Source: Hirudo medicinalis (taxonomy: Eukaryota > Annelida > Clitellata > Hirudinida > Hirudinidae). From it: a stretch of DNA of 64,000 bases. Positions 15,153 through 45,377 of this stretch are shown here, one piece after another. The translations under genes were made by a program, and so were the position numbers. The stretch covers positions 64,569-128,568 of the forward strand of contig MPNW01000036.1 in NCBI GenBank assembly GCA_011800805.1, written 5' to 3'. Position 1 is the stretch's first letter. Each line of letters begins with the position of its first letter. The notes under the pieces were generated by a model that was not told where the DNA came from, did no database searches, and worked only from the letters and a program-made list of their open reading frames with translations.

Positions 15153-18100
15153 TCACTCCCTGACAACAGCAACTGCAGTGGAAGACTGCTGGTTTGAATC
15201 CAGAATATCCTGAACGTCAAAGTCAATGACAAGGAGCTTCGTTTCTTCGGTGCCATTCCGACTACCGACGGCGCAGACGAGCTTGGTGTTGTTGCATCGA
15301 ATCCTCCAGACAACGCCTCCACTACCTCCGCTCTCCAGTGCCACTAGGTTTCTTAAGAACTCACCAGTCTTCAAGTCCCATAGCTTCACTGTTCCATCAT
15401 CTGAGCTGGTGATGATGAGTGTGCCATTGAACTGCAGGCAGGTGACGGCACTTTGGTGCTTGTTAGGTCCTGAAAATTAATGTCACAATTCCTAAATTCA
15501 TATTAAAGCATAATTTTTCACAATGGTTAAAAATAAGTTAAAGACTTGGCTTGCAAGTTAGCTTGGAAGGCTGCATTCCTGCATGCAATTATATAATATA
15601 TTATATAGAGGCGTATTATCATTTATTTACACATCAAATACGATGGGCCTTTTGTGACCTTGCCTTATGTCCACGACCAATGGATGAACTTCTAACCTTG
15701 TAGTGTCTGCAGACACTGTCCTGTCATGATATTCCAAACTTTGACAGTGGAGTCAGCATTTCCTGAGACAAGGATGTTATCCTTGAGCTCCATGCCACTG
15801 GTGAGAGACTGGTGGCCAATGAGGGTATGAACACACACACCAGTCTCAGCATTCCACACCCTAATGGAGGTGTCCAGGGAACCACTTACTATGTGGGTCC
15901 CATCAAACTAGAAAAGGAAATCGAGGAGCTATCATTTGCAAATTATTACATGTTCATGCCAAAATTATTCCAGTCAATTTTTAAGCTTAAAATTGCAAAC
16001 TGATTACATATGATTTGAAGTATGAATGAATGCTGTTTAAATGTCTTCCCAGTCATGGTTCATCTCTTTATTGAAACAACTGAAAGTTCTGATAGACATC
16101 CCCACCTGCAATGAGTAAACTCTGTTGGTGTGACCAGCGAGTGTTTGAAGACAGGTTTCTGTTTCAGGATCCCAAATCTTGACCATGTAATCGTAGCCAC
16201 CACTGATGACCCTATGGCCATCATACTGTACACACCTTACAGCCGCCACATGTCCTATGAGTATGTGCAGGCACTGGCCTGAGTCGATGTCCCAGACTCT
16301 GAGTGTCGCATCTCTTGACCCGCTAACAACCCTGTTCAAATAAATATGAGAAGCAATTGATGGATTAATGCAAAGTGCATTTTTAATTTTAATGCAAAGT
16401 AAATTTTATAAAGCAGACAAAGAGCGTTTCTTTATTTGTATTTTTAGTAGAGACTGACTGAATTTTGGCTTTAGTGCCGAAAGTTGCCATGTGATCATTT
16501 TCGCTGTAGTTTCAGCTATTTTTGGGTTTAGGTGATTTAGGTCAAAAGTATGACCTGTGAGTGTTTTAAGACAGGTTTCTATTTCGGGATCCCAAATCTT
16601 GACCATGTAATCATCGCCACAACCATAACAATCAATATTCAACCTTTTATTGTGGAGGTGCATGCACCGGACAGTGGATGTATGGCCATAGAGTGTATGT
16701 TTGCACTGCCCAGTGTCGGCATTCCAGACCTTGAGGGTTCGGTCTGTTGACCCGCTAATAATTACTGATCCACTCATCTGGGATGACCAGACACCTCCTG
16801 TGTGGCCTGTTAGAGTTCTCAAGCACTGTAATTCAAATGATTATGATCTTCAAATTTTGGATAAGTTACCTCCAAACCATTTTAGAAATGGCATTTTCAA
16901 ACTTTTACAAATTCCAAAACAAGTTTAACTACATACATATACCATTAAACATTTACAGGAAGATATAATAATTGTGTATTTAATGTCCAACTCTTGTCAA
17001 ATTTAAGCATTTGCCTCATTACCATTTTGAACTTTAATAATGAAATATCCAACCCTGCCAGTAACAGAAGACCACACTTTCAGGGTGTTATCATCTGAAC
17101 CACTAACAATTTTGTTTCCAGAAAACTCCAGACACGTTATTACATGATCATCATGTCCCTTCAGAACCTTAGGAGTGAATCAAGAATCTTACATTAATTA
17201 AAGAGTAAATTCGTATAACACATAGTGAAATTATTATCAGATTTAGCATTATTGTAATAACAAGCTGATAAAATTTCAAGTCAATACTTAAATAACCTTG
17301 CAAATGTGCAGCATTAAATAGAGCAATTATTAAAAGAATAACTAATCTCATGAATCTTCAATTTATACATTTATAGAATAATGTTAGAAGCATGTTATAT
17401 CTAAAGTCTAAGTAATGATAAATTGATGAAGATATTGGGCAATGATAATAATAGCTATTATTAAATTCTATCGGTTACTAAATTTGTCGTCTTTCAAAAA
17501 TAACTCAAGACGAACCTTTGGGGTCCTGATAGATGTCCTCCAATTGTATTCAATTTGTTTCTGCCGGAGATAGAGAGCCTTCCAAGCATTTTTATCCCCA
17601 CGTCCTGTGTGGGCTGACTTCCCCCTTCTGCCTGAAGGATAAACCAGGGCTTCAGTTACGCATTCCTCTTGGCACTTCTCCCTCCAAAGCAGATTGTCTT
17701 CAGCAAGGGAGTGCCAGTAGGTGCATGTCTGAGCTGCTCGAAGCAGGTCTTTTGGGTCAAGGAAGGACAGGACGTAGAGAGCTAACTGTGATCGAAGGGT
17801 TAGATACATTTATATATTTAAGAGACAGGTAGGTAATTGGAATACCACCAAGTTTAACAAGATCAAAAGTTTTGCATGTAGAATTTTTTATGGTTTAACA
17901 AAATGGGAACTAAAACTTTGCAAAAAATTTTATTAAAATAAAAGAGTACATCTAAAACCTAACATTTAATTTGTTACTAAATACTTAAATTGCCTATTAA
18001 AATTCAATTAACATCACCATCATCATCATCATTATTATTATTATTAACATCAATAAGACTTCTGCACTTGCTCTCTTCAGTTTAGCACATCTATCTTTAT

Positions 18101-35971: not shown

Positions 35972-38900
35972 ATGGCATCTCTGCGTTTTTGTTTAATCAA
36001 GGAATTTGGAAAAGCTTTTCACGGTTTGACAGCCTTCTTCATTTTTCTCATCATGTCTTGGGACTCTTTGATGGTGTTTTGCTTGCTTTCCGCCGCACAT
36101 GGTCAGATGGGTGAGTTCATACGGGATTATGAATATATGTTTGAATAAGCGTTATTACACGGAGTGATTATGCAACATTATTGAAATTTAACTAGGTTTA
36201 CTTTATTTAATATTTCAAAATTATGAAGTTAACATTTTTGAAAAAGAATTTCTGGATTATGGACATATATCGGATGACAATGCCGAATTTATTTGATCGC
36301 AGTTGCACTGCCATTTCCTAACTTTAATGAGTTACGCTTAATTTCATTAAAGTTTGTCATTATATCCAAAAAAGAATGGAACAAGCTGCTACCAAAAATT
36401 CGGCTGATACTATAATTCGAATAAATAAAGTGAGAATAATTATAGAACTGTTGGCGATAATAATAAACGCAAATAATTGGTTATGAAATACTAGCAAAGG
36501 CAAATAATAAGTCAATAATATGTAAATTGTTTCAATAGTGACAACAACTGAGTAGCATTAATGTTTAGTAAAACTTATTTTGAATTACATGAATCAAATT
36601 TTTAATTTTCTAGTTACTCCTTGCTTTGTTCCTTCTGACCAAAACTCCACTGCACCCAGGCCAAGGTCTGTAGGCCAGTATCCACCTAAGGGATCTTTGA
36701 GTGGCCAGCAAGGTGACCCTTGCTTTCCTTCCCAGGAAAAGGCCTGCAATCCTACATCATGTTTATATGGATTTGAATCCAACTCTATCTCTTGCAGTTG
36801 CAGATGCTTTGATCCGTGTGCCGCTAAGGTGGGCTGGGCGAGAAAATTTGTTTATTTTGTCCTTTTGCATTATAGATTTGTATGCACATCAATACAGTAT
36901 ATTGACATTTAAATTAATGATAAATGAAGTTTTTATTGGTTTTATTGCTGTTACCATTATTGTCTATAACAAATTGCTTGTAATTATTGATATAATTATT
37001 ATTAATAATTCATTTATAAACATTTAATCTCAATTTTTAATGTTGTTCTTACTTTCTCATAATATATTTATAATAATAATTATAATTACAATTATTATAA
37101 ATTATAATTATTTTATTACTTTCTCATAATTATAATATATATATACATGTATTTACATAATTATTTTTATATTATTTTTTATTATTTATAATTCATCAAG
37201 TCATATTATTATAAGTTATAATTATTATAATAATTATATAATATTTTTCTATAATTTATATATAATAAATAATAATATAACTAATATATTAATTATTATA
37301 ATATCATATAATTATAATAATATATATAATAATATAGAATTAAAATTATAATAATATAAGACATAATTATAATATAATTATAATATAATATAATTATGTA
37401 ATATATTATAATATATATAATTATATAATAATTTATAATATAATTATTATATTTATATATTTATTATTATTATTAATTATAATAATAATTTTTATATTAT
37501 TTTACAATAATATAATAATTTTAGAAATATATTGTAGGAAAGTAAAATTAAAAACGTAATATTAATTTAAATTGCTATAGAAATCGTTCTGAATAAATGT
37601 TCTGGAACCTGTATTTTCTCACGAACTAGAGAACGGTGCATTGATCGAGACATTGAAATTTGTTTATCTCAGAGTTGCAACGAAAACGAGAATTGTGTCG
37701 TCACGTCCTCTACCGACAACACCTTCTACGGCACCTGCACCGCAAAACCCGGTACCTTTCTTTTTTGCTTTATAAGTAAATGACTAAAAGAATTAACAGA
37801 CAATTTGAATGAATACATGATGATGACAGTCAACATTGATAAACAATGTGAATGTTACAACTGTTTTTAAATTGGAAATAAGCAAAGAATGATTTTGAAT
37901 CCACCTCTGTTTGGAAATCAATCCTCTTTGCATGCCTGACTTGTTTTGCTTTACTATCAGTGATGTGAGATCACTATCTAAAAGTCTTTACCGGTTTAAC
38001 AATCGCAATTGATTTAAGAATCATGATTGATTTTTGAGGGATGGTTTGTCTAACTCTTAATTATCCCTAATGGCTTTTTATTTCTCTTTTACTGTTCAAG
38101 TATAAATGATAAATGTAAATGGTAAGTAATCATTGCCTGATATCATTTTGATGATTCATTCTTCCCTTTCTTTGCAAACATTTATTTACAAAATATTATC
38201 ATTTTTATAAAATGGTTAAATATTGTCATTTTATTGGTGGAGTGGTCATTGTAATTGCATTTTTAGGACACATTCTGTTGCGATCGAGCCACAAATGTTC
38301 TTTCAACTATTTTTCCATTCGTCCGTCTTGAGTTCTGCTAAAATTGCTTATTCAGCCGTTTGTCCAAAATTGTTCTGCGGACTGCCAGAATGCAAGTTTG
38401 GATATGAATTAGACTCCAAGGGATGCCAGACGTGTGAATGCAAGAATCCATGTCTGGTGAGTTCTTCCATTATTGTACTAATGTTTGGCTAGGAGCTTTG
38501 CCTGTGCCATGACAACAGTAATAATGATGATGACAACAACAACAATAACAATAACAATAATTCAATGCCAGAACTTTGGTTGCCCCGCTAACTATACATG
38601 CCAGATGCTGCCCTCATCAAATGGAACCTCGATGCCCTCTTGTGTTGGTAAGTTGAAAGCATTGCCCTTGGTATTTAAGATCATTGCTATGGAGCTATTC
38701 TTAATGAGAAATTAAATATTTTTATGTCCTGGTTGCTACTTGTTGCCTCTGAAATTAAAATGGTTAAGTATATGATGTAAACATTACTGATTTTCAGCAT
38801 AGGGGCATCCTTATTAGTATAAACATTATTAATTATTTAATTAAATTATTCAGTTTTTAAGTTAGTTATTCATGCCAATGGCAGATTGTCCTAAAATGGA

Positions 38901-41900
38901 TTGCCACAAAGATGGGGTGTGTCCTCTAGGTCTGGCCAAGAATAAAGATGGATGTGATGTCTGTGAGTGCCATGGCTGTCCCTGCACCAACGACTGTATT
39001 TCAATGTACTGTCCCGACTACGCCATGGACGAAAAGACGGGATGCGATCTGTGCTCCTGTGCTGTGATTGATTGTGAAGTAAGCTCAAGAAATAATTCAT
39101 TCCTGTTGCTTATTCTTTGCTACAGTTGATAATATTATTAGTTTTACTATTGCTCAATTGTGGATTGACTTATTTTTTTATTTAGTCTAAATTATTAATA
39201 CTTTAATGATTATAATTTGTAATAATAATAACTATTATTAACATTGTTAGCTTTATCATTTATTTGATTTTTCTAGTTTATGAATTGATTTTGCTAAAAC
39301 TTATTGGCATAGATACAGATTATAATCAATGCCTTACTGATTTTAATTGAATTCTGCCTATTTCCATTCTGTTCGGAATGTATTTCATTGTTAGGTTAAG
39401 CTTTGGTTGGTGAGTCAAAAAATAAAAAACCCGTAGAATTTTGTAAACATATTTGCCTTGCCAATGATTGCTATCTATTTATATTTTTTAGTTTGAATCC
39501 CATCGAGATTTAATTATTAATTAGTCGATTGATTGATTGATTTATTTATTATATGAGGTGAGGGTGGGAGGACCCTCTGACCCTCTGATTCACTTGGAAA
39601 AAATAAATAAAATAAAAGAAACATAAGCCATTGGAGGTGAGAAGGGCAATGAATCAGCGTTTTGTGGAGTCTATTTAATCATTAGAAATCTTTTTAGGTC
39701 GTTCTGCGATTGTAAGTGTAACGAATTTTTTGTAACTGAAATTTTAGGGCAAGTGTGCCAGTGATGAAAAATGTGCGAAACAGTACACTAGACATAATAG
39801 AGTCTACGGAATATGTGAGAAAAAAGGTAAGCTTCTCATTTTTGTTGAATGATAGGTCTTGACCCCGAAGCTCTCTTCTAAGTGGTGAATTGATTTACGT
39901 ATAATACACGACCGGCTGTGATCTGTTTTCTATGTTGCATTGATTTTCTGATCATGCATTTTTTAGTCACTAAACATTCATTCCAATTCTTATCGGTTAA
40001 TGCGACCTTATTAATTTTATAATATAACCATTATTTGAATCACATTATTAATTTGTTTGTTGATAGTCAAATGTCCGGACTGTTCTAGAGTGCGTTGTGA
40101 CTATGGTTTCAAGTTGGATTCTACTGGATGTAACACTAAAGATTGCTCGTGCTACCAACCGTGCGAAGTCGGTCGATCTATTGATTACGTTAATTTGTCA
40201 ATAAGATTTCATGAAACTTTTTTTGTCGTCAGGGGAAATGCGAGGAAAATGAATACTGCCTGATGAGTGCCGACGACTGCGTCAACAAAACCGATTGTCG
40301 AGATGCTCCCATGCCTTACTGTAAAGGTGAGCCTCTTAAGGATTTTTATTGTGGTGATGATGAATATGTTGGTGAACATTTACATAAAGGTTTTTAATTT
40401 AATAGGTTATGATGTGATGTATCATTAATGGTATTAATATTGTTGATTTGAGAAAAATTATTGAGTATCTTAATAATCATTAGAATGTCCGAGCTTAAGC
40501 GGTTGCCAACTCGCTTCTTCTCAATGTTCGAACGGGTTAGCCAGAGATTCTAACGGATGTAACCTCTGCCAATGCCTTTGCCCAAATGCATCCTGTCCCT
40601 TGTACTGCGTGTACGGCAATGTCGTCGATTCGACGACAGGCTGCGAATCGTGCGAGTGCAAGCCTTCTCCTTGCGTGGTTGGTTGTTTCAATTCTTCTTT
40701 GTTTACAATAAAGTTTTTATCGATTTTTATCGAGCAGCAGTTTTTATCAAAGTTACGTCATCTCGACAAACGATCGCGTGCAGTTTTTCATTATCGTTCC
40801 ATGAGGGTGGCAATTGTTATTTCACTTATTAAAGTTAATCGGTGGTGTTGCATTTCTCATTAGATTTTCATTTCATTCTAATCATTTTGCTTATTTATTT
40901 ATGTTTTAGTCCAGTCAGTTATTTTTGCTGTTATTATTGACTTACAAGAACTTTCCCACAAATACAGGGTTTTACCTGCCCCTCAAATGAGGTCTGCAAG
41001 GCAGAGATGAATGCAAATGGAACTCATGTGGCTCGTTGCATGCCAAACAAACCAAGTAATGTGCCGACGTAATTTATCGGTCGTGCAACTTTAAATTTAA
41101 TGGCAAATTTAACTGGTGAAAACTCGAGTGATTTGGAATTAGACATCCTTTCCTGTACGTTATGCATTACATTGTACATTATAAACATTGATTTTTCATT
41201 TTGAATGCTAATTCACTGCCATTGTTTGCATTTGAATTAAGTTAGTAATGTTCGTAACTCTCTTCATGAATATGCTAATTAATTTTAGTTGATCCATGCC
41301 AGCCTACAAACTGTGGAGAGAAAAATTGCCTCATGGGTTTTGAGAAGGATTCCCATGGCTGTGTTCTTCCCAGCTGTACCTGTTATGAATTGTGCAAGGT
41401 AAATAAGCTTTATTATAAATCACAATTAAGCAAGAATATATGCAATGCTATTCGTAATTTGTATATGACATGCATCACATCATCAAATCCAACTTGTTTA
41501 TGCAATTGCTATTTTTGGTTTTTTCATTCAATATTTAAAATATCTAATCCCCACTATTCATTCTAAGAACGACACATGTCCTCCTGGCAGTGTATGCAAG
41601 ATAACAAAGGATGATTGCCTCAACGGCTCAGACTGTAGAGATGCCCCCATGCCTTACTGCGAATGTAGGCTTATTGATGAAATCATTTGAGTAATTATTT
41701 CAGCTTCACATACACAAAGTGACTTAATGCATTTTTTTCATATTTAAAATAAAAATAAAAATAATCTGGAAATGGCAGTAAAATTAATAATAATCCTTAA
41801 AGCCATCACTACCGTGGTGACTACCACGCCGAGAGGAGGGTCTTGTCCCTCGGTCACTTGCGAACCAGGATGTACAGAGTATTTAAGTCCGATCAGCAGG

Positions 41901-44900
41901 TGCCCTGCATGTAATTGCACGCAGGTGGATCCATGCAAGGTAACTTTACCTATTGGCACGATGCCAAATTTGAGAATATGACAAAGTTCTTTTGTTTATC
42001 AACGACTTAAACTCTGCAGTATTGTATAGTGTAGTTGCATCATTGTAGTTGTCATCGTTATTATGTTATTCCAATGCAATTCCTCCCAACTTATGAATCA
42101 GTAAGAGATCAATCCTACCGAGGCCTATCGAGCAAATTAATAATTAATAGCAAATTTTCTGTGGCTTTTATTCAGCCTATCATTTGAGTGCCTTGTTTAT
42201 CCAAATCGATTGTGAAGGCACTGCAATCACCCGACCATTTGGTGCGGGTGTGGGGCTCCCCTGGCAGTGCAGTCTGGCTTGCGAGCACGACACATTACGG
42301 CTAATACTTAAACTGCTTCGTGCAGAAATGCAACCCACTGAGCATCGCCATTTTATTATGTTAATTATAGGAAGCATTAAAAGGTTATTAATAATAACTT
42401 ATTATTGGACTATTTTCTTAGACTCATCAGTGTCCACAAGGGCAGATTTGTGTTGTTTCAAAGATATCTTGCAATGAAAGTATTGACTGCACTGGCTTGC
42501 CCTTATGCCTTGGTGAGTTGATAGTGAGAATGGTTTGAGTGGTCATAGATGGTTATGGCAGCTCTGAAATTATATTTATGGTGATGATAACGATACGTGA
42601 CAGATGTGACAACAACGAAAACAACTCCTCCAATAATATGTACCAGGCCTTATTGCGATAGTCCTTGCTCTATTGTCTCCAAGCCAAAAATGCCCTGTCC
42701 AGTCTGTGATTGTCCTGCTGACTGCAAGGTTTAAGCTTTACCCATATTTTTTCCCTTAACCTTTTTTTCACAACATCCACATCTTGTGTAATCTGTAATT
42801 ACATCTCCGTCGAAACCATTGGTAGTTTAACCATTATTACTAATACCTCCAGAACTCCACATGTCCTACCAATCAGACTTGTCAGATGGTGTCTCATCCA
42901 GGCTGCTTTCCACCCTGTCCCAAGATACCAAAATGCGTTCCAAGTATTTGAAATGCTAATTTTTAAATAAATTTTGGAAATATTTAAAAATTTATTATGC
43001 TTCAGAATGCTTATATATTTGTTGCTTAATTTCTAAATAATAACCCAAAACCTAAAATGATTCATATTAAATTATTCTTATTGACTGGTCATACTGTTTA
43101 TTAATCATAAGATATGAATATTCATCAATCTAATTTGCCTCATACATAGGTCAACCCTCATCCTGTTTCCAGGCAATGGTTGAAGGTGTATCTTGCCTAG
43201 ATATTCCCGTACTGCAGTATCGCTTCAATTCCTCGTTGCAGACGTGCGAGCCATTTTGGTACAAAGGTTGCCTTGGAAATGAAAACAGGTTGGAAGTTGA
43301 CGGAAGTTTCTATTTCAATATTATTAACTTGTTTGCAAACATCCACCCATAATTTCTTGTAACCCAGTGATGATGGCATGCATGTGCATGGTTGCTTGGT
43401 TCATGCAAGGTGCATGCATTGTGCTTGGTTGTATCAGAGCATGTTGAAATATTGACAATGCATAAAGCCCGTTTAGAATAGGCATCATTATGCAAATGGT
43501 TCGATATGTCAACGTCAATGATATATAATGCTGACGATAAATCCATTCATTTCATCTCATTTATTTATTTATCCATTATTCCTGATAGATTCTCTTCGAA
43601 GGAGTCCTGCCAGTCAGTGTGCAAATTGCAGTCCTATGCCTGTCCCTCTTTTCAGTGTTCCATAGACTGCCGCCATGGCTACAAGCTCGACTCGTCAGGA
43701 TGTCCAAAATGTGAATGCATCGACATCTGCGAGGTAAATAATTTTTTTAAGTAATAGTTTATATTCTTTATCACAGCAATATTTTTATAATAGAAAAGAT
43801 TTATAATCTCACGACCAATCACTTTAGGGCATCACTTGTGGCTCAACTGGTCAGCAGTGTCGAGTTCAGATGACAGCCTGTCCTGTCTCTTCCATTGGTC
43901 AGACTTTTATATCAAGTGATGGAAAAATCACTCCCTACTGCACCCCTATTGAAGTGCCAAAATGCATATGTGGTCCAACGACCTGTGAAGTCGTATGTCC
44001 TTTTGGCAAAGTCAAGGACTTTGTTGGTTGCGACACATGCAACTGCTTCGACCCTTGTGCCTCTGTCCAGTGCTCGGCCGGACAGCTATGCCAAATTGTT
44101 GAATATCAGAACTGTGAGAGCAAGTCATGCTCTAGTGCTCAGTGGGGAGTCTGCATGGATGCCTATGCAAAGCGAAACATCAGAATGAAAATAAATGCCA
44201 GCTTTGAGGTTTATGTCCTCGGGAGTCTCGAGTCTCTGACGAGAGAGGTTGTCGGTCAATTGTCCTCAAAGTATCGCGTGAGGAGAGAGCTCGTCTCTAT
44301 CACCAAGTTGGAGAAGGGAAGCATCCTCCTGACAGCTGATGTCCTCTATCAAAATTCAGAGATATTCAAGGCCAATGATGATCAGGTGAGGTTGGGGTTG
44401 ATTTGTTGTTATGAATTTACGTGGTTACGACAGAAATTTTGGGCCCCAAAAAATTGCCAGGCCTCCGGTCGCTCATCCCCTTCTCGGCAGCCCCGCCTCT
44501 TGATGATGACTAGTTATTAAGAAATAAATTATTTCTTTATCATTGTTATTTTTGTCTGTAAGTGAGTTTATCATTATTTTACATTGTCTTTGGTTCCATT
44601 TCAGACCAACTTCAACATCACTCTGGACAACCAGTCATATCCTGCCTTAATCTTGTCATTCAAGGATGAATCATCAACATGGACCACAAAACCCCCTCCT
44701 CAATTCTTCACCCAGGGTGAAGTCATTCTCACCATTCTCCTCTGTGTGCTTGTTCCCTTAGCCATTATTGTCTCAATGGTTGTCACCTACTTCATATGTG
44801 TGGTTTGTATTACATTTTTCATTTCATGATTCTATTTATGAACTTATGTATGTGTTAAAAGAGCTAGTCTGAATGAAAAATATGATACCAAGAATTAATA

Positions 44901-45377
44901 ATTATGTTTATTTTTCAGTTTTAATAATTCATTTACAAATAAATTTCTATTCTATTTTCTTCTCAGCATTGCAAGAGAAGGAGAGGAGGCTCCATTAAAT
45001 CGATTCTGAACACTTCCTCTTCAGAAATATCAGACTCCTTAGCAGCGCATAACAAAATCAAGGTTGTGATTCCTTACAGGAAGCTTAGAAAATATGTTTT
45101 AGCATTTTGAATATAAGTGTTAGGGAGTTCATTTTTGTGTTTTGCATTATGTCATACATCTTTATATTTCGCCATATATCAGATATGATCATTATTTTTA
45201 TAATTCTTATTATAATTATTATGCTTTAAAGAGATTTTCAACATTTTCTTAAAATAATTATGTCGTTTATGAAACCATTAGCATGAAGACGCGAAAGTAT
45301 GGAGCTCGTCTTCAAGTGGTAGTGGATCAGTAACCAAAGATCCGTCAAAAAGACCTATTAGTTTCACGGAAGCCTGA
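35972..45377 (+). CDS. Type I membrane protein with tandem antistasin-like, FOLN-like and Kunitz modules
   Basis: Twenty-three exons: 35972-36110, 36614-36828, 37673-37751, 38356-38456, 38572-38647, 38885-39078, 39748-39826, 40067-40167, 40233-40326, 40484-40677, 40968-41055, 41289-41398, 41568-41664, 41803-41939, 42422-42512, 42604-42728, 42853-42943, 43150-43288, 43589-43733, 43828-44385, 44605-44802, 44967-45062, 45282-45377; 3243 bases, 1080 residues. Order: signal peptide (ending near SAAHG), then about twelve antistasin-like modules (CxxxxCxxGxxxDxxGCxxCxC) alternating with small modules of the form CxxxxxCx(15-20)PYC that resemble follistatin N-terminal (FOLN) units. A Kunitz domain (residues about 675-730, FWYKGCLGNENRF) lies before the last two antistasin modules. 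A roughly 130-residue Cys-poor stalk, one membrane helix (near 988-1016), a CKRRR stop-transfer and a 63-residue Ser-rich tail ending FTEA follow. Likely a cell-surface protease inhibitor or ligand-binding receptor; I know no exact orthologue. The boundary at 37673 and the start codon are the least certain points. Confidence 0.85.
37020..37545. repeat. Extreme AT-rich low-complexity block
   Basis: About 525 bases of almost pure A/T made of short palindromic 'ataattataat' permutations, in the intron between the second and third exons of the antistasin/Kunitz gene. G or C occurs at only a few positions per hundred. It could form many hairpins and may be assembly-fragile. Confidence 0.9.
42225..42325 (-). 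mobile_element. Antisense diverged SINE copy
   Basis: On the minus strand 'gccgtaatgtgtcgtgctcg' and 'ccagactgcactgcc' follow the same order as the B-box region and junction of the SINE at 25053. It lies in an intron of the antistasin/Kunitz gene between 41939 and 42422. Confidence 0.45.
44425..44497. mobile_element. Decayed hAT-type MITE remnant in intron
   Basis: The left part 'cgacagaaattttgggcccc' matches one end region of the 34459-34628 element (reverse orientation) and the right part 'cttctcggcagccccg' matches its other end. It has lost the middle and lies 40 bases after the splice donor at 44385, so it would be translated if that intron were retained. Confidence 0.6.

Follow-up and report, generated by a model that had tools for sequence, protein, structure and literature searches.

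An apparently single-copy gene for a predicted membrane-anchored antistasin-Kunitz protein in Hirudo medicinalis: exon architecture, relatives and possible role

The window analyzed here is a stretch of 64,000 nucleotides from the medicinal leech Hirudo medicinalis (contig MPNW01000036.1, positions 64,569 to 128,568). Between positions 35972 and 45377 of this window, a span of about 9.4 kb on the + strand holds one gene of 23 exons separated by 22 introns, all GT-AG, and the joined exons give a single reading frame of 1,080 codons followed by TGA, in agreement with the one gene of 1080 residues proposed in an initial annotation of the same DNA. The predicted protein combines a signal region with a long array of antistasin modules, a Kunitz domain set into that array, a juxtamembrane domain, a transmembrane segment and a short tail. 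Its exons suggest that the small cysteine-rich modules and the antistasin modules of the array are the two halves of a single domain, and the intron phases that delimit them recur in other antistasin genes of this genome.

A protein search with the 1,080-residue query among 2,612 candidates returned two proteins, P0001 and P0002. The former is a frame of 1,044 amino acids within a contig of 3,802 nucleotides (nt), whose source label, lgn, we take to mean assembled sequencing reads. This single frame runs from the signal peptide through the C-terminus, shares 82% identity with the query over 98% of its length, and ends, as the query does, in RPISFTEA. Because 3,802 nt are too few for a 9.4-kb gene with its introns, the contig would represent a spliced transcript if its own gene has similar introns. 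Since P0001 begins at the residue equivalent to Met28, the start codon is probably the ATG at 36053 rather than the one at 35972. When P0001 was searched against the H. medicinalis genome, 21 of the 26 matches fell in this gene, all collinear, with no separate match for exons 1 and 22. The remaining five were weak, lay in the Kunitz range and came from another contig (L034, G000:C421:28000-37900), which is probably a cluster of Kunitz exons. At the sensitivity of this search the gene is, to all appearance, single-copy, and as far as the relative P0001 can show it would form one transcription unit.

Exon 1 (35972-36110) encodes the signal peptide region, and exon 2 (36614-36828, phase 1 to phase 0) encodes an N-terminal stretch, a lone and degenerate C-half of the antistasin type, recognized by eye, and the first cysteine (C1) of the first full unit. 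The exons that follow come in pairs, in which an N-half exon running from phase 0 to phase 1 precedes a C-half exon running from phase 1 to phase 0. Exons 3 and 4 (37673-38456) form unit 1; exons 5 and 6 (38572-39078) form unit 2, with an additional C-half in exon 6; exons 7 and 8 (39748-40167) form unit 3; exons 9 and 10 (40233-40677) form unit 4, again with an additional C-half; and exons 11 and 12 (40968-41398) form unit 5. Units 6 (exons 13 and 14, 41568-41939) and 7 (exons 15 and 16, 42422-42728) have no Pfam match. Exon 17 (42853-42943, phase 0 to phase 1) is an N-half whose matching C-half comes after the Kunitz domain. The latter (residues 676-728, 43164-43622) occupies exon 18 (phase 1 to phase 2) and the start of exon 19 (43589-43733, phase 2 to phase 0), which continues into the antistasin C-half. 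The first part of exon 20 (43828-44157) holds a full ten-cysteine unit and a last solitary N-half, with no intron between them. The juxtamembrane domain (residues 876-985, 44158-44706), known from a predicted fold with low-confidence models, spans exons 20 and 21, and is followed by a transmembrane segment (approximately residues 988-1016 by hydropathy, 44713-44799) and by a cytoplasmic tail, first basic and then Ser-rich, encoded by exons 21 to 23 (residues 1017-1080, 44800-45377, with the stop at 45375-45377). The sequence around the first introns is of unusual composition: intron 2 (36829-37672) is strongly A+T-rich, the G+C fraction over 36001-38000 being 0.263, and this could hinder assembly and short-read mapping there.

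The initial annotation read nearly every ectodomain exon as one module, with the small ones labelled FOLN. The intron positions relative to the cysteines suggest a different division. Of nine phase-0 introns, eight lie one codon past C1 and the remaining one lies three codons past it. All eight phase-1 introns separate C4 from what comes next, either C5 or the Kunitz domain. Therefore, each small exon carries C2 to C4 and each antistasin exon carries C5 to C10 plus the C1 of the next unit, so that an exon pair, not a single exon, covers a ten-cysteine domain. At the level of Pfam, the antistasin family PF02822 scores 66.4 bits in the whole protein (cut-off 21.2), with eight antistasin stretches; when the ectodomain outside exon 18 was scanned in five pieces, these gave 1, 2, 3, 0 and 2 stretches, again eight in total, and the piece covering exons 13 to 17 matched zero Pfam families. 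By cysteine pattern, a script recovered 11 C-halves, to which the degenerate one in exon 2 adds a twelfth, so the estimate of about twelve antistasin units held up as a count of C-halves, against the eight stretches of Pfam. The whole protein contains 137 cysteines, and a pattern search marks 16 N-glycosylation sequons in the ectodomain.

The small module was further assessed with a profile of 13 two-part units, comprising seven exon pairs and the exon-20 unit of this gene, three units of P0003 (a protein added by profile search) and two of P0002. In their alignment, nine of the ten cysteine columns are invariant, and PF02822 matches 11 of the 13 units at E<=10. Of the family models named in the initial annotation, PF02822 and PF00014 scored above cut-off, while FOLN matched none of the 13 units at E<=10 (the filters drop most matches above 0.1), and the small module fits the antistasin N-half at least as well. 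Against the Protein Data Bank (PDB), a phmmer search with a 255-residue piece of the array gave no match at E<=10, and the unit profile was required: it gave 11 rows at E<=10, with antistasin itself (1skz, 1.3e-4) at the top, followed by hirustasin (0.0019 and 0.0027), the toxin chain RhTx, matched at the N-half (0.015), bdellastasin (0.026), gigastasin (0.1), guamerin (0.23), three SPARC/BM-40 chains (2.8, 4.4 and 7.8) and an eggshell membrane protein (3.6). One 1skz alignment spans both halves, placing C1 to C10 onto residues 8-54 of 1skz. Several observations weigh against this two-part reading. The alignment that spans both halves has an independent E-value of only 2.2, C5 is out of register in two of the 13 rows (exons 15/16 and exon 20), and the SPARC chains, which are FOLN-type, leave a distant relation possible at E 2.8-7.8; the identity of the N-half is carried more by cysteine order and exon position than by score. 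Overall, a single ten-cysteine antistasin domain appears to be divided between the supposed FOLN exon and the antistasin exon, each carrying one half. On this reading, Pfam's 26-residue antistasin model covers just half of each domain.

The strict alternation of intron phase that had been described for the whole array applies to 17 of the 22 junctions: those after exons 1 to 17 follow the series 1, 0, 1, 0 and so on to 1, while the final five are 2, 0, 0, 0, 0. Agreement by chance of the 16 further junctions would be very unlikely if they were independent, but they are not, because the exons are copies of one another. Similarity between units was compared with shuffles in which the cysteines were fixed (64 pairs, uncorrected). 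Among N-halves, the best pairs, exons 9-13 and 5-17, are closer than these shuffles, and exon 13 matches exon 9 at 16 of 32 residues. Among C-halves, the pairs 4-8, 4-10, 4-19 and 2-12 all score above 6-10. Exons 6 (38885-39078) and 10 (40484-40677) each measure 194 nt and contain two C-halves, and the exon lengths suggest a block duplication of exons 5-8 into 9-12, with which the C-half similarities are not in agreement. P0002 likewise has the doubled C-half of exon 6; thus, at the protein level, this doubling would be older than the split of these leeches. The argument that symmetric exon pairs can be added while the frame is kept stands, and the doubled C-halves of exons 6 and 10, together with identical copies at another locus, are in keeping with it; we infer that the array probably grew by duplication of such pairs. 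It counts against paired change that P0002 is without 15 of the 26 residues of exon 7, which is a single exon. Loss of one exon of the 0-1 type alone would break the frame, so the Helobdella gene model or its introns call for scrutiny at this point.

Ten other antistasin loci were taken from the genome, and nine of them (L024-L031 and L033) gave 39 C-half exons by pattern, while L032 gave none. With a simple splice-site scoring made for this analysis, the best acceptor was in phase 1 in 37 of the 39 and lay exactly 2 nt before C5 in 31. At random open positions in the same stretches, by comparison, phase 1 was found in 396 of the 1,132 that had an acceptor, and 868 of 2,000 had no acceptor at all. 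The best donors were in phase 0 in all 11 rows of L024, L026, L030 and L033, which thus have the phase-0 donor after the C-half in common with this gene. Those of L027 were in phase 0 in one of three cases and in phase 2 in the other two, and those of L025 in phase 1 in 15 of 18 and in phase 2 in three; of the seven rows at L028, L029 and L031, two had a donor in phase 1 and five lacked one. N-half exons with a phase-0 acceptor and a phase-1 donor, searched for in the eight loci other than L025, were recovered at L024 (three), L027 (one) and L030 (two), and not at L026, L033, L028, L029 or L031 (in the last three, by neither of two filters). Because 37 of 39 other C-half exons start in phase 1, the 1/0 alternation is a trait of antistasin genes in this genome and is not peculiar to the membrane-anchored gene. 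What these antistasin and hirustasin-like loci share with it is the ten-cysteine unit and the phase-1 intron before C5. For the annotation of antistasin genes, whose short exons are easily overlooked, this provides a simple rule, with a phase-1 intron ahead of C5 and a phase-0 intron behind C1.

Two groups of these loci deserve separate mention. L025 (G000:C620:23500-33400, - strand) contains at least 18 antistasin C-half exons, and two adjacent ones are identical (75 of 75 nt) within a 127-nt alignment at 96.9%. As read from these letters, the identical neighbors are the product of a recent duplication of a symmetric exon. L028, L029 and L031 (contigs C1178, C353 and C210) carry two to three hirustasin-like exons per 9.9 kb, in which the residue that follows C6 is Arg, Lys, Met or Phe.

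The Kunitz domain that had been placed within the array is confirmed by PF00014, which matches residues 671-733 scanned alone at E 2.4e-16 (60.1 bits, cut-off 21); the scan of the whole protein did not list it. Its six cysteines are kept in this protein, P0001 and P0002. The domain sits at the position of a phase-1 intron, flanked by the exon 17 N-half and the exon 19 C-half, and it contains a phase-2 intron. It may therefore have been inserted as a phase-1 module, splitting an antistasin unit. Its P1 residue, after the second cysteine, is Leu here and in P0001 and Gly in P0002 (by eye), and the P1′ residue here is Asp, which is unusual in Kunitz inhibitors.

In antistasin, the reactive-site residue is the one after C6. 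A basic residue there, which marks some inhibitory antistasins and not the fold, is found in none of the 11 listed C-halves of this protein, one of 11 in P0001, which is not independent of it for such counts, and none of nine in P0002, compared with 12 of 39 at the other loci of the genome. In other arrays, Lys or Arg occupies this position in three of 13 C-halves of P0003, none of ten in P0004, two of 31 in P0005, three of nine in P0006, three of eight in P0007 and one of four in Ciona CRIM1. The twelfth C-half, in exon 2, which the pattern missed, has Asn (by eye), and the residue mostly differs between this protein and P0002 (by eye). The loop between C6 and C7 has the canonical three residues in just five of the 11. 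Because the reactive-site positions are devoid of Lys and Arg and vary between leeches, this protein is unlikely to be a broad inhibitor of trypsin-like clotting proteases.

The single-pass layout had also been anticipated, and hydropathy supports a type I arrangement of this kind: besides the signal region there is one strong segment, at residues 991-1009. P0001 and P0002 both have a transmembrane segment, and the motif K-H.D is kept in both tails. Between the array and the membrane, the juxtamembrane domain is predicted to fold in the order beta-alpha-beta-beta-alpha-beta, which is that of SEA domains, and Gly929-Ser930-Ile931 (44317-44325) is invariant in all three leech-type sequences (this protein, P0001 and P0002). 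It falls at the predicted turn from strand 2 to strand 3, the site of cleavage in SEA domains. Autoproteolysis of SEA domains between strands 2 and 3 has been described, with GSVVV or GSIVA given as the motif (PMC6954182). Thus, the juxtamembrane domain is possibly SEA-like. Set against this, the structure models are poor (mean predicted local distance difference test scores of 29 and 46), SEA was tied with ribosomal S24e-type folds in the structure comparison, and the Pfam SEA model gave no match. A PDB profile search with the juxtamembrane alignment returned two unrelated rows (E 0.11 and 1.1), and the SEA family gave zero matches in the H. medicinalis genome, where the control likewise gave zero. 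A by-eye likeness of this domain to that of P0004 is not taken as homology, as hhalign assigned it a probability of 0.1% over one column, no better than 20 shuffles.

The initial annotation regarded the protein as belonging to no nameable family and as a candidate for an undescribed system; that does not stand. P0002 is HELRODRAFT_192448 of Helobdella robusta and covers 90% of the query at 36% or 41% identity, depending on the comparison. It shares the order of antistasin array, Kunitz domain, further antistasin, juxtamembrane domain, transmembrane segment and short tail, and differs in having six Pfam antistasin stretches where there are eight here and in the poor match of exon 7 and parts of exons 10 and 11 in its model. 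In their work on H. austinensis, Kwak et al. (2019) obtained a clone of Hau-antistasin3, for which they list the protein id 192,448 (PMC6719055), and it is by this number that we equate P0002 with the counterpart of Hau-antistasin3. The same text ascribes to Hau-antistasin3 one Kunitz domain next to six antistasin domains, without showing the data, and places its expression at stages 9-11 in the oral precursor and proboscis, in the proboscis epithelium, of a leech whose diet is not blood. Architecture and expression of the counterpart have thus been published, though not its molecular function, which in part bears out the refuting case named in the initial annotation, and neither "membrane" nor "transmembrane" occurs in the main text of that paper by word search. 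Judged by best named match, domain order and single copy, the gene of H. medicinalis would be orthologue-like to Hau-antistasin3. It may also be represented in PMC7303139, where the sections at hand list a single-copy H. medicinalis gene for an "unidentified thrombin inhibitor", with a hypothetical protein (3e-140) and CRIM1 as best hits; in that paper, "transmembrane" occurs once, within a reference only. The accessible portions of PMC7303139, PMC10674772, PMC3374290, PMC5824581, PMC5549309 and PMC9464118 describe no membrane-anchored leech antistasin. Within the open-access literature, the anchor and the possibly SEA-like juxtamembrane domain with its invariant Gly-Ser-Ile are apparently unreported.

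More distant arrays vary in their anchoring. P0003 has two Kunitz domains and 11 antistasin stretches. P0004, also added by profile search, is a protein of 688 amino acids with ten antistasin stretches and a transmembrane segment at 644-662; it begins with a stretch that is Kunitz-like by eye, with Arg after the second cysteine, where Pfam listed no Kunitz domain, and it has a last N-half, a juxtamembrane stretch and a basic tail. A search with P0004 gave seven rows including itself, among which Ciona CRIM1 (P0010) was the only other one with a transmembrane segment by hydropathy. The anchored layout would thus occur at least in leeches and in the source of P0004, which does not imply shared ancestry. 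P0005, of 1,198 amino acids, has 31 antistasin C-half patterns and neither a transmembrane nor a signal peak by hydropathy. Elsewhere in the window, an open reading frame on the - strand (16406-16840) encodes WD40 repeats (PF00400, E 2.7e-16) and is a piece of a neighboring gene; it gave the sole match above cut-off among the ten frames scanned of the 22 in the window with at least 110 amino acids.

Taken together, we lean towards the view that the gene encodes a single-copy surface protein with a binding or adhesion role at the epithelium of the feeding organs, rather than an inhibitor of trypsin-like proteases, its anatomy being far surer than its role. The ectodomain would comprise nine antistasin units of ten cysteines in two parts each, among them the one that the inserted Kunitz domain interrupts, together with three extra C-halves and one last N-half, and would be followed by the possibly SEA-like domain, the transmembrane helix and the short Ser-rich tail. 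An inherited pair of introns of the antistasin domain, in phase 0 after C1 and in phase 1 between C4 and C5, would have been multiplied by way of symmetric exon pairs. Because the counterpart is transcribed in proboscis epithelium, the protein may sit on epithelial cells, its disulfide-rich ectodomain forming a stiff stalk to which partners bind in a CRIM1-like manner, and the Gly-Ser-Ile turn might permit juxtamembrane cleavage and shedding of the ectodomain. What tells against this reading is that 27 of the 39 C-halves of other loci are also devoid of Lys and Arg after C6, which makes the contrast weak, that their absence is compatible with inhibitors of elastase- or chymotrypsin-like proteases, and that P0003, the next relative, shows no transmembrane segment in its sequence as available. 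A tethered, active inhibitor resembling HAI-1, which would guard epithelia from surface or gut proteases through the Kunitz domain and some antistasin loops, is a less likely alternative, though not without support: the Kunitz domain is complete in three proteins, its P1 Leu suits elastase- or chymotrypsin-like targets, chains of HAI-1 were among the profile matches and P0004 has its Arg in the Kunitz-like stretch, whereas the variation of the Kunitz P1 between leeches, the unusual Asp at P1′, the zero of 11 units with a basic residue after C6 and the scarcity of canonical C6-C7 loops all argue for another role.

The ectodomain could instead be released by the juxtamembrane cut as a salivary or gut anticoagulant that acts on clotting factors of the prey or blood meal, the anchored form being its precursor. 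Other members of the family are known leech anticoagulants, the gene of PMC7303139 resembling a thrombin inhibitor could be this orthologue, and Gly-Ser-Ile is invariant, but such a function seems improbable given the reactive sites described above and the presence of a counterpart in Helobdella, a leech that takes no blood (PMC6719055). Finally, the model could fuse two or more adjacent genes; this is very hard to reconcile with P0001, a single frame in one 3,802-nt contig with an unchanged order throughout, signal peptide and C-terminus included, with its 21 collinear matches on one contig and with the same order in the Helobdella protein. Returning to the surface-protein reading, a bolder version of it would recognize, in leeches and in P0004, a class of membrane-anchored epithelial antistasin-Kunitz proteins that has gone unrecognized, in which an array derived from inhibitors was turned into a tethered stalk for adhesion or ligand binding, with a self-cleaving collar of the SEA type and a shed ectodomain. 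We regard this version as speculative and doubtful.

If the surface-protein reading is true, it would matter for how the family is understood. In the leech literature examined here, antistasins are treated mainly as secreted anticoagulants, and a single-copy, membrane-bound member that is also retained by a non-blood-feeding leech would suggest an internal epithelial role for the family. The secreted inhibitors may have budded from a membrane-bound member or be its sisters.

Several known systems combine some of these features. The initial annotation, pointing to leeches and Hydra, held known antistasins to be secreted; against this, CRIM1 combines four antistasin-like domains with a membrane-spanning one (PMC11922885). 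As CRIM1 is a single-pass antistasin protein, the attachment of antistasin domains to a membrane is by itself no novelty. CRIM1 resembles the leech protein in its type I transmembrane layout, antistasin domains and short cytoplasmic tail, and differs in having an IGFBP domain and six VWC domains of its own, as given in the available text of PMC11922885, whereas the Kunitz domain belongs to the leech protein. At E<=10, antistasin was the only family matched in the five ectodomain pieces outside exon 18, one of which matched none, and neither IGFBP nor VWC appeared, so the leech protein is not placed in CRIM1. HAI-1 (SPINT1), whose chains were matched by profile through the Kunitz domain, is a type I membrane protein with Kunitz domains that is not known to have an antistasin array. 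At the protein level, an alternation comparable to the one seen here is shown by the cocoon protein of the leech Theromyzon (Mason et al. 2004, 2006, via PMC12838937), in which six repeats each join an antistasin-like domain to an EGF domain; it is a product of the cocoon, and that account, in the part available, mentions neither a Kunitz domain nor an anchor.

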